9,122 bases of DNA. Source: Frankiaceae bacterium. Lineage in GTDB: Bacteria; Actinomycetota; Actinomycetes; JAVEEB01. The first letter of the stretch is position 1, and each line of letters starts with the position of its first letter. Both the position numbers and the translations under genes were made by a program. The notes under the pieces are model-generated. The model had not been told where the DNA came from. It saw nothing but the letters and a program-made list of their open reading frames with translations, and did no database searches. The DNA lies in NCBI GenBank assembly GCA_030840665.1, contig JAVEEB010000081.1, positions 1 through 9,122 on the forward strand. Reading direction: 5' to 3'. Below are positions 1 to 9,122 of the stretch, one piece after another.

Positions 1-410
1 ACCGAGTCCTGAGCCGCGACGGCCTCTGGGTCGACGCACCCTTCTCCTCGTACGGGGTTCAGCCCCTCATGCGGTTGACGCTGACGCGCAACTCGCAGCG
101 CAAAGTGATCCACGCGACGGCCGATCACCGCTGGTTCGTGTCTGCACACAAGGACCAGGAAGTCGTCACGCGTGCCCTGCAGTCGGGGCAACGGCTCGTG
201 TCGGTCTCCCCGCTGCGGCCTCTCGTCGGCGCATCCGCACCCATGCCGCTTCCCGCCCGTCACGACGGCACGAACGGCACGAACGGCACGAACGGCGCAG
301 CGTGGGTCGTGGAGTCGGTGGAGGAGACCGACCGCGTCGAAGAAGTTTTCTGCGCAGAGGTCGAGGACGGTCACGCGTTCGTCCTCGCGGACAACCTGTT
401 GACCGGCAAC
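1..410 (+). other. Intein (C-terminal part) in DnaG, probable class 3 mini-intein
   Basis: A protein-splicing element translated in frame with dnaG. The N-terminal block A lies left of the window. Block B is visible as HATADHRWFV (T and H of the TxxH motif; Trp codon at 132-134). Blocks F/G are EVFCAEVEDGHAFV followed by NLLTGN, with the last Asn at 408-410 and a +1 Cys at 411-413. Trp two residues after the block B His, Cys at block F position 4 (nt 351-353, where class 1 inteins usually have Asp) and Thr at block G position 5 (nt 402-404) together form the WCT set that defines class 3 inteins. The penultimate residue is Gly rather than the usual His. Only about 75 residues separate blocks B and F, too few for a LAGLIDADG endonuclease, so this is a mini-intein. 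Assignment as an intein is firm; the class 3 call is by motif and cannot be completed without residue 1. Confidence 0.88.
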
Positions 411-2084
411 TGTTTCGGGTGCGGCGAAGGCGGCGACGTCATCACCTTCCTACAGAAGGTCGAGCACCTGTCGTTCTCCGAAGCGGTCGAGCAACTGGCC
501 GGCCGCGCGGGCATCGAGCTCCGGTACGAGGAAGGCAGCGCCGCCCTCGGCAAGGAGAAGGGCCAGCGCGGTCGTCTCGTGGCGGCCCACGCAGCGGCCG
601 CCGCTTTCTACACCGAACAGCTCGCGAGCCCCGAGGCGATCGCGGGCCGGCGGTTTCTGGCGGAGCGCGGCTTCGACGCCGACAGCGCCGTCCGGTATGG
701 CGTCGGCTACGCGCCCAAGGGCTGGGACGCGCTGACGACCCATCTGCGGGGCAAGGGCTTTCACCCCGACGAACTGTCGACGGCGGGCCTTGCGAAGCCG
801 GGGCAGCGCGGCCCCATCGACCGTTTCCGCGGCCGCCTGGTGTGGCCGATTGCGGACATCGCCGGCGACATCATCGGGTTCGGTGCCCGCAAGTTGTACG
901 ACGACGACAACGGCCCCAAATACCTCAACACCCCCGAGACGCCGCTGTACAAGAAATCTTCAGTCCTGTATGGGCTTTCGCTCGCGAAAAGCGAGATCGC
1001 GAAGCGCCAGCAGGTCGTCGTCGTCGAGGGCTACACCGACGTGATGGCCTGCCATCTGGCCGGCGTCCCGACCGCGGTCGCGACTTGCGGCACGAGCTTC
1101 GGCGAGGAGCACATCCGCGTCCTGCGCCGGCTGCTGATGGACCAGGCGGAGCACAGCGGCGAGGTGATCTTCACGTTCGACGGCGACGCGGCCGGGCAGA
1201 AGGCCGCCCTGCGCGCGTTCGCCGACGAGCAGAAGTTCGTGCTGCAGACGTTCGTGGCCGTGACGCCGGGCGGCCTCGACCCGTGTGAGCTCCGCCTCGC
1301 CAAGGGCGACGCGGCCGTGCGCGACCTGGTGGCCGGTCGGGTGCCGCTGTTCGAGTTCGCTCTTCGTACGACGATCGAGAAGTTCAACCTGGACACCACC
1401 GAGGGCCGGCTCGCCGCCCTCGACGCCGCGGCGCCCATCGTCGGCGGGATCCGCGACCGGGGCCTCCGCCAGCGGTACGCCGTGAACCTCGACCGCTGGC
1501 TCGGCTTCATGGACGAGGCCTTCGTCTTGCAGCGGGTCGTCGAGCACGCGGGCGACACCCCCGGCGGCCGCAGGCCCGCGGCCGCTCCCGTCAAGGCCGC
1601 CCCGGACCCGCGCGACGCCGGGCTGCTCGTCGAACGCGAGACGCTCAAGCTCGCCATCCAGCGGCCGGCCATGATCGGGCCGCGGTTCGACGCGCTGCCC
1701 GAGGACGTGTTCACCGCGCCCGCGTACGAGGCCGTGCGCGACGCGATCCTGGCCGCCGGTGGTTGCGTCGCCAGCACGGGCGGTGGGGCCTGGGTGGCCG
1801 CCGTGGCGACCGGCGCGGACGACGACGTCACCCGCAGCCTCGTCACCGAGCTGGCGGTCGAACCGCTCATGTCCGGCAACGGCGTCGATGATCGCTACGT
1901 CGCCGAGCACCTCGCCCGCATCCAGGAAATCGCCGTTACCCGGCAGATCGTCCGGATCAAGTCCAGGCTGCAGCGGGTCAACCCCGTGGAACAGGCGGAT
2001 GATTACAACAAGCTCTTCGGCGAGCTCATCGCGCTCGAGGGCTTCAAAAAGCGCCTCCGCGCGCAAGGAATAGCGGGCCTTTGA
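3..2084 (+). CDS. dnaG: DNA primase DnaG, 5'-truncated by the window and interrupted by an intein
   Basis: DnaG makes the RNA primers for lagging-strand synthesis at the fork, working with the DnaB helicase. The reading frame is open from the first full codon (nt 3), so the true start lies upstream; the ATG at 69 is internal to the intein. Intein sequence runs to nt 410 and the C-extein starts at Cys 411. The C-extein begins with CFGCGEGGD, the second half of the CHC2-type zinc ribbon. It continues with the primase core (RFRGRLVWPI, GFGAR, KYLNTPET). The TOPRIM domain follows: EGYTDVM with Glu at nt 1026, CGTSFG, and FDGDAAGQKA with Asp codons at nt 1179 and 1185. The last third, after a Pro/Ala-rich linker near nt 1560-1620, fits the DnaB-binding region. 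The C-extein is 557 aa, which with a usual N-terminal stretch of about 60 aa gives a normal DnaG length. It ends in TGA, 115 nt before rpoD on the same strand, the classic dnaG-rpoD order. All visible TOPRIM acidic residues are intact, so the spliced enzyme should be active. Confidence 0.96.
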   Translation, partial: RVLSRDGLWVDAPFSSYGVQPLMRLTLTRNSQRKVIHATADHRWFVSAHKDQEVVTRALQSGQRLVSVSPLRPLVGASAPMPLPARHDGTNGTNGTNGAAWVVESVEETDRVEEVFCAEVEDGHAFVLADNLLTGNCFGCGEGGDVITFLQKVEHLSFSEAVEQLAGRAGIELRYEEGSAALGKEKGQRGRLVAAHAAAAAFYTEQLASPEAIAGRRFLAERGFDADSAVRYGVGYAPKGWDALTTHLRGKGFHPDELSTAGLAKPGQRGPIDRFRGRLVWPIADIAGDIIGFGARKLYDDDNGPKYLNTPETPLYKKSSVLYGLSLAKSEIAKRQQVVVVEGYTDVMACHLAGVPTAVATCGTSFGEEHIRVLRRLLMDQAEHSGEVIFTFDGDAAGQKAALRAFADEQKFVLQTFVAVTPGGLDPCELRLAKGDAAVRDLVAGRVPLFEFALRTTIEKFNLDTTEGRLAALDAAAPIVGGIRDRGLRQRYAVNLDRWLGFMDEAFVLQRVVEHAGDTPGGRRPAAAPVKAAPDPRDAGLLVERETLKLAIQRPAMIGPRFDALPEDVFTAPAYEAVRDAILAAGGCVASTGGGAWVAAVATGADDDVTRSLVTELAVEPLMSGNGVDDRYVAEHLARIQEIAVTRQIVRIKSRLQRVNPVEQADDYNKLFGELIALEGFKKRLRAQGIAGL
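267..293 (+). repeat. Three perfect 9-bp tandem repeats encoding Gly-Thr-Asn
   Basis: GGCACGAAC occurs three times head to tail, in frame, giving GTNGTNGTN followed by one more Gly. It sits in the middle of the intein between blocks B and F, in the surface region where homing endonuclease domains are inserted in full-length inteins. It most likely forms a flexible linker, and being made of whole codons it can change copy number by slippage without breaking the frame. Confidence 0.9.
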
Positions 2085-2199: not shown

Positions 2200-3378
2200 G
2201 TGAGTCCCACCGCACTGCCTCGTGAGGCACAGGTCGACGAGGTCAAGGACCTGATCACCCGGGGTAAAGAGCAAGGCTTCCTCACGTCCGAGGAGATCGG
2301 CATCGCCCTCACGGCCGCCGAGCTCCCGCCTGAGCAGACCGACACGGTGCTCAAGGTCCTCGCCGACGAGGGCATCGAGGTCGTCGAAGGCGGCGACGAG
2401 GAGGAAGAGGACGACCGTCCCGCCCCCGGGAAGCGTCGCGCCGACGAAGAGGTCTCCCTCAAGGCGCCGACCAACGACCCGGTCCGCATGTACCTCAAGG
2501 AGATCGGCAAGGTCCCGCTCCTCACCGCCGAGGAGGAGGTAGACCTCGCCAAGCGCATCGAGGCAGGCCTGTTCGCCGCCGAGAAGATGGCAACGGCGAC
2601 GAAGAAGCCGACCGACAAGATGCGCAAGGAGTTCGACTGGATCGAGCGCGACGGCGAGATCGCCAAGCGCAAGCTCGTCGAGGCCAACCTGCGCCTCGTA
2701 GTGTCGATAGCCAAGCGCTACGTCGGTCGCGGCATGCTCTTCCTCGACCTCATCCAGGAGGGCAACCTCGGCCTTATCCGCGCGGTCGAGAAGTTCGACT
2801 ACACCAAGGGCTACAAGTTCTCGACGTACGCGACCTGGTGGATCCGTCAGGCCATCACGCGGGCGATAGCCGATCAGGCGCGCACCATCCGCATCCCCGT
2901 CCACATGGTCGAGACGATCAACAAACTCGTCCGCATCCAGCGTCAGCTCCTGCAGGACCTGGGCCGCGAGCCCACTCCCGAGGAGATCGCGAAGGAGATG
3001 GACCTCACCCCCGAGCGGGTGCGCGAGATCCAGAAGGTGTCCCAAGAGCCGGTGTCCCTCGAGACCCCCATCGGTGAAGAAGAGGACTCCAGCCTCGGCG
3101 ACTTCATCGAGGACTCGGACGCGGTCGTCCCCGTCGACGCCGCGAGTTTCATCCTGCTGCAGGAGCAGCTCGACTCCGTGCTCCACACGTTGAGCGACCG
3201 TGAGAAGAAGGTCATCCAGCTCCGGTTCGGCCTCACGGACGGCCACCCGCGCACGTTAGAAGAAGTGGGCCGGGAGTTCGGCGTGACCCGCGAGCGCATA
3301 CGGCAGATCGAGTCCAAGACGCTGTCCAAGCTCCGCCACCCGTCACGGTCGCAGAAGCTGCGCGACTACCTCGAATAA
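2200..3378 (+). CDS. rpoD: Principal RNA polymerase sigma factor (SigA/HrdB/RpoD type)
   Basis: The primary sigma factor directs core RNA polymerase to housekeeping promoters. The 392-aa protein has the full group 1 architecture. A short acidic region 1.1 spans residues about 10-72, including a DEEEEDD run. Region 1.2 begins at [18 protein letters not shown] (92-109). Region 2 has [35 protein letters not shown] and [20 protein letters not shown] (about 160-225), covering core binding and -10 recognition. Region 3 spans about 234-312 ([10 protein letters not shown] onward). Region 4.2 carries the -35-binding helix-turn-helix [20 protein letters not shown] (352-371). The N-terminus is short compared with HrdB proteins that carry long acidic or Lys/Ala-rich extensions. 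The GTG at 2200 is the only usable start I can find: an in-frame TGA lies at 2134 and no other ATG/GTG intervenes. GGAAGG at 2183-2188 can serve as ribosome binding site, at a longish 11-nt spacing. The last nine codons (SQKLRDYLE) and the stop recur at 5662-5691. Confidence 0.97.
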
Positions 3379-3407
3379 ATCGATCGTGTACGACGAGAAG
3401 CCCGCCG
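3348..3407 (+). repeat. Direct repeat, copy 1: rpoD 3' tail plus start of terminator
   Basis: Nt 3348-3399 are identical over 52 nt to 5661-5712. After one inserted A in copy 2 the match continues through GCCCGCCG (3400-3407 against 5714-5721). The segment covers the last nine rpoD codons, the stop, 20 nt of downstream spacer and the left arm of the terminator. This is the genuine rpoD end. Confidence 0.97.
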
Positions 3408-5660: not shown

Positions 5661-5721
5661 GTCGCAGAAGCTGCGCGACTACCTCGAATAAATCGATCGT
5701 GTACGACGAGAAAGCCCGCCG
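5661..5721 (+). pseudogene. Direct repeat, copy 2: detached rpoD 3' end fragment
   Basis: This piece carries TCG-CAG-AAG-CTG onward, coding SQKLRDYLE and TAA, exactly as at the end of rpoD, plus the 20-nt spacer after the stop. Nothing upstream continues the sigma factor reading frame, so it is a fragment left by duplication or recombination and not a gene. The repeat distance to copy 1 is 2313 nt, and the interval holds gene A. Confidence 0.93.

Positions 5722-7109: not shown

Positions 7110-9122
<2,013 letters not shown>

Follow-up and report, generated by a model that had tools for sequence, protein, structure and literature searches.

A widespread DnaG intein allele combining Cys1 with the class 3 signature residues, with class 1 splicing as the predicted route

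The window analysed here, a stretch of 9,122 nucleotides from a Frankiaceae bacterium (contig JAVEEB010000081.1), starts inside the gene of the primase DnaG and inside an intein that interrupts it. This intein carries the class 1 feature set, comprising Cys1 in a normal block A (CLAGDTEVIT), the TxxH motif of block B (TADH), Asn161 and Cys+1, together with the class 3 set of Trp at position 12 of block B (B:12), Cys at position 4 of block F (F:4) and Thr at position 5 of block G (G:5), hereafter WCT. It belongs to a DnaG intein allele that is widespread, and it is predicted, as the fairly probable reading, to follow the class 1 splicing route with its own Cys1 as the starting residue. Since splicing likely begins from Cys1, the class 3 label given to this intein in a preliminary description is probably wrong. 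The class 1 route is the simplest reading because Cys1, TxxH, Asn and Cys+1 are all retained, and the block F Cys is best read in an accessory or relay role.

Host gene and recovery of the intein start

Frame 3 of the window is open from nt 3 to 2084 and represents the dnaG gene, its first 136 codons encoding the C-terminal part of the intein, which ends in LLTGN and is followed by the primase sequence CFGCGEGGDV. The proposed DnaG host was borne out by a TIGR01391 match (E 1e-93) and by the Pfam domains expected for a primase (PF08275, PF13662, PF10410 and PF08278), while the PF01807 match begins at window-frame residue 136, profile position 56. Reading of the same frame confirmed the motifs HATADHRWFV, EVFC and LLTGN-C as well as the claimed places of Trp B:12, Cys F:4 and Thr G:5.

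The missing start was searched for in the same genome with the first 1500 bases of the window. The window's initial 94 bases recurred, exactly and end to end, as the last 94 of another contig (C311, the window contig being C333), and this was the only further place found. The joined contigs give an uninterrupted frame encoding a 779-residue DnaG from a GTG start, the intein accounting for 161 residues, and the intein profile matched at C333:3-410 and C311:4570-4734. The junctions read ...ARGFYH for the N-extein, CLAGDTEVIT...LLTGN for the intein and CFGCGE for the C-extein, and the insertion splits the CHC2 zinc finger directly before its third Cys/His (CPFH...C-FG-C). The feature, previously placed at 1..413, keeps its end but begins upstream of the window at C311:4570. 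Residue 1, which had been expected to be neither Cys nor Ser once the upstream sequence was retrieved, is Cys. The residue formerly called Cys95 had the right codon but was counted from an internal Met, and is Cys142 in intein numbering.

The joint is based on contig overlap rather than reads, and the assembly is fragmented (503 contigs, ~78% complete), so that C311 and C333 might belong to separate strains or loci, in which case the window intein would have its true N-terminus elsewhere. Such an origin is highly improbable in view of the exactness and uniqueness of the overlap, the continuous frame and the gap-free alignment of seven relatives across the joint. Moreover, C311 carries an upstream dGTPase gene (NF002829, E 3e-174), the usual neighbour of dnaG in Actinomycetota, and the assembly yielded no further DnaG.

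Conservation and distribution of the family

A database search with the intein region returned 512 proteins, of which the best 120, the window's own included, were listed. Two added searches, with an Azospirillum DnaG and a phage ribonucleotide reductase-like protein as queries, supplied the best 120 of 780 and the best 120 of 145 proteins, respectively, giving a family set of 350 distinct proteins (window fragment P0001 included) whose residues were taken from profile columns. Cys1 was present in 347/347 members reaching residue 1, the other three starting inside the intein. Thr B:7, His B:10, Cys F:4 and Asn G:7 were each found in 350/350, followed by Trp B:12 (349/350), Thr G:5 (347/350) and Gly G:6 (344/350), and position +1 was Cys in 347 members and Ser in 3. 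These five residues with full counts are among the 10 invariant columns of 120, the median column conservation of the family being 69% and its median pairwise identity 55%. The unusual feature of the family is the joint conservation of three cysteines. A block F His occurs in 266/350 members, the window copy among them. The penultimate Gly, previously described as a deviation, is indeed present but is no oddity of the window copy, as the family count makes plain. The only His-for-Trp exchange at B:12 among the 350 proteins was seen in P0334, which retains Cys1 and Cys F:4.

The 119 listed relatives from the intein-region search all contain PF01807 with the same insertion point and have the C-F-[GS]-C junction in common with the window intein. 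In this group, the window copy included, Trp B:12 and Cys F:4 were each present in 120/120 and Thr G:5 in 119/120 (Ser once). Further loci were retrieved by patterns holding either Trp or Cys F:4 (80 kept of 125, plus 30 viral-contig loci), and in loci retrieved by one pattern only the other residue was present in 47/47 and 9/9 cases. The DnaG allele extends over Actinomycetota and Alphaproteobacteria (for example Actinoallomurus, Nocardioides, Geodermatophilus and Azospirillum), with the same insertion point (H^CFGC) and residue set as the window intein; the DnaG intein of Actinoallomurus iriomotensis is 59% identical to the window copy. Within related genomes the insertion is patchy, since intein profile matches occurred in 7/98 of them, five (own included) with E below 1e-30 and two weak.

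Hosts other than DnaG resemble RtcB, phage ribonucleotide reductases, terminases and others, as assigned by eye from extein sequence, and intein relatives were present at 30 loci on viral contigs. Two viral relatives outside the protein set, L106:3001-3954 and L113:2974-3936, terminate in Gln rather than Asn (LTKQ-C and LSHQ-C). Another relative, with 54.7% identity, lies at 3001-3930 of L249 (Skermanella rosea plasmid pSR-4) inside an annotated MobF relaxase, outside replication proteins.

Intein lengths among the best 120 of the 512 proteins range from 140 to 321 residues. In contrast to the 161 residues of the window copy, 110 of these 120 have 276-321, with PF14528 (LAGLIDADG) listed for many of the long ones, whereas 10 are shorter than 230, the window copy among these. 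The extra sequence of longer relatives, often including a LAGLIDADG endonuclease domain, sits at the linker site that holds a GTN repeat in the window copy, a mini-intein without endonuclease.

Comparison with class 3 and class 1 inteins

Class 3 controls were seeded with signature-bearing DnaB inteins in genomes of the same class, which were then used on viral contigs and genomes, the class 3 label of the set resting on signature and kinship rather than experiment. The best 80 of 460 loci were chosen by block F/G patterns, whereby Cys F:4 was selected for, and 25 others were added; 89 of the 105 loci yielded an intein, 75 of them distinct. Residue 1 of these 75 was Ala in 73, Pro in 2 and Cys in none, and position +1 was Ser in 50 and Thr in 25. 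In 34 of the 75, B:7 was Asp 32 times and Ser and Thr once each, and G:6 was His 33 times and Gly once. The window intein has Trp B:12, Cys F:4, Thr G:5 and the Hedgehog/intein (HINT) fold in common with class 3 inteins (Msm/Mch DnaB1 and phage relatives), but differs from them at four places, namely residue 1 (Cys, against Ala in class 3), the block B motif (TxxH against DxxH), G:6 (Gly against His) and position +1 (Cys against Ser/Thr). Class 3 is usually defined by the lack of a nucleophile at residue 1, where this intein has Cys, and Ser/Thr+1 is a usual though not strict trait of the class.

The class 1 references had two sources, Actinomycetota genomes and the proteins of the phage-protein-query search, with a Cys or Ser start required. 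From 61 extracted rows 59 were kept, P0285_134 (a member of this family with Cys F:4) and P0337_107 (with ends from two inteins) being set aside beforehand. In these 59, Trp B:12 occurred 10 times, Thr G:5 once and Cys F:4 never, F:4 being Asp in 49, Ser in 4, Asn in 3, Ala in 2 and Glu in 1, and the WCT combination was absent. Nearly fixed in the 120 listed proteins, window copy included, and rare in these references, the WCT pattern exceeds chance. The family, in which the class 1 set coexists with the WCT set, therefore belongs to neither control group. Class 1 inteins with Cys F:4, described in PMC3196547 as polyphyletic, likewise have Cys1, TxxH, Asn and Cys+1, whereas the window family adds near-fixed Trp B:12 and Thr G:5 and has a penultimate Gly for His.

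Phylogeny and structure

Trees were built on chosen representatives after dropping duplicates and rows with unsure ends and removing the six diagnostic columns. The first tree (49 family, 34 class 3 and 10 class 1 rows; bootstrap not fully settled) placed the 34 class 3 rows in one group (99/98) and the 49 family rows in another (95/94). Both groups persisted in the second tree of 34 family, 18 class 3 and 59 class 1 rows (100/100 for class 3 and 94/93 for the family), where one class 1 row adjoins the family. The smallest starred sets with the window intein contained family rows only, 29 in the first tree and 16 in the second. Because the alignment is short and approximately unbiased (AU) tests left the joined topologies unrejected, a separate grouping of family and class 3 is favoured but not proved.

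A predicted model of the Actinoallomurus relative, flanked at either end by 20 extein residues, had a mean predicted local distance difference test (pLDDT) score of 82, reaching ~95 in most of the core, and matched class 1 and class 3 inteins alike. This is as expected because backbones do not separate the intein classes, according to PMC7664689.

Predicted splicing mechanism

In the proposed class 1 route, the TxxH residues Thr64 and His67 would put the His-1/Cys1 bond under strain and activate it, allowing Cys1 to form a linear thioester from which the N-extein would be taken over by Cys+1. Asn161 would then cyclise, perhaps helped by His149 of block F, a help suggested because the penultimate residue is Gly, and an S-N shift would close the zinc finger, to which Cys+1 contributes the third Cys. 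According to PMC5050341, a class 1 intein of a mycobacteriophage splices well with Gly as its penultimate residue and less well once this is changed to His, and a block F His can stand in for the penultimate one. Cys142, at the usual class 1 Asp position, would probably act as a local acid/base or as a thiol relay from Cys1 to Cys+1; the invariant Cys F:4 may thus either replace the F:4 Asp as acid/base or carry the acyl group briefly. In inteins at large, Asp is most often found at F:4 and Cys next, as stated in PMC4031507.

Besides the read-free contig joint, several points weigh against a class 1 route. Cys F:4 shows the same invariance as Cys1, with Trp and Thr close behind, which goes beyond ordinary class 1 need. 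Position 1 of class 3 inteins is conserved too, as Ala, so conservation alone is no proof that Cys1 is a nucleophile. The AU tests left a union with class 3 unrejected for the whole family (p 0.494) and, over 126 columns, for the DnaG inteins (p 0.343) and for the window intein by itself (p 0.214). Tori and Perler in 2011 reportedly treated mixed inteins with Cys1 or Ser1 plus WCT and with motifs of both classes (Catera Gp206, Nocardioides JS614 TOPRIM and Tfu2914), at least one of which, Catera Gp206, is said to have been placed in class 3. The JS614 TOPRIM intein may be the same DnaG allele. Catera is also listed as class 3 in PMC3196547.

One alternative is a class 3 route despite Cys1, in which Cys142 would attack the N-junction, a branched thioester would form at block F and Cys1 would be a dispensable passenger. 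The full and near-invariant WCT set, its absence from the class 1 references (two rows having been set aside) and the unrejected kinship with class 3 agree with this route, but the contrast of Cys1 in 347/347 family members with 0/75 class 3-type inteins, together with Thr rather than Asp at B:7 and Cys rather than Ser/Thr at +1, makes it unlikely. The earlier class 3 proposal is thereby weakened, the separate tree groups adding to these residues despite the tie left by the AU tests, although the signature on which it was built is real.

A relay through three thiols, from a linear thioester at Cys1 via a block F branch at Cys142 to Cys+1, would make both internal cysteines obligatory and accords with the conservation of all three across DnaG, RtcB-like and phage hosts. 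The F:4 Cys could equally be an acid/base, however, and no such pathway was found in the portions of the literature examined; we consider the relay quite unlikely. Decidedly unlikely is the broader proposal that the widespread family both splices by this relay and is the surviving form of the ancestor of class 3, whose inteins would have arisen by loss of Cys1. The class 1 route from Cys1 is the preferred prediction.

Relation to known inteins and significance

DnaG is already listed as an intein host in PMC5874633, and a census of 1701 class 3 inteins (PMC7891396) used the absence of Cys1 as a criterion, by which the window family would therefore be left out. A description of this family was not found in the partial texts returned by literature searches for DnaG inteins and for Cys1/Ser1-plus-WCT inteins. 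With Cys1, WCT and Cys+1 retained in hundreds of members, this family lends itself to the questions of which cysteine is the first to act and by what path Cys1 might disappear. The 161-residue copy without endonuclease is expected to be easy to express, and as the insertion interrupts the zinc finger of an enzyme that is essential, primase activity would be under the control of splicing. The features of the intein and its host are collected in Table 1.

Table 1. Positions of the intein and DnaG features in the window, unless another contig is named
Feature	Position	Strand	Basis or remark
Intein residues 1-25	C311:4570-4644		window nt 1-2 complete codon 25
Intein residues 26-161	3..410	+	94-nt overlap, open frame, profile matches
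Block B core TADHRW: Thr64 (B:7), His67 (B:10), Trp69 (B:12; codon 132-134)	117..134	+	joined sequence, family conservation
GTNGTNGTNG linker, 9-bp repeat, between blocks B and F	267..296	+	sequence
Cys142, block F position 4 (class 3 nucleophile position)	351..353	+	Cys in 350/350 family members
Block G end T-G-N: Thr G:5 (402-404), Gly G:6 (405-407), Asn161 G:7 (408-410)	402..410	+	family conservation
Cys+1 of C-extein, third Cys/His of CHC2 zinc finger	411..413	+	joined sequence, PF01807
C-extein of DnaG primase	411..2084	+	PF08275, PF13662, PF10410, PF08278, TIGR01391

Other observations in the window

An exact repeat of 52 nt occurs downstream of dnaG, its first copy (3348-3399) covering the 3' end of a sigma factor gene and the following bases and its second lying at 5661-5712, 2313 bases further on. 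Both copies are followed by a 77-nt stretch with 75% identity, and the arrangement looks as if a segment had been duplicated. On the minus strand, an open-ended open reading frame at 7110-9122 combines a glycosyl hydrolase family 16 domain with three stretches of the F5/8 type C kind and has linkers rich in Thr and Pro.
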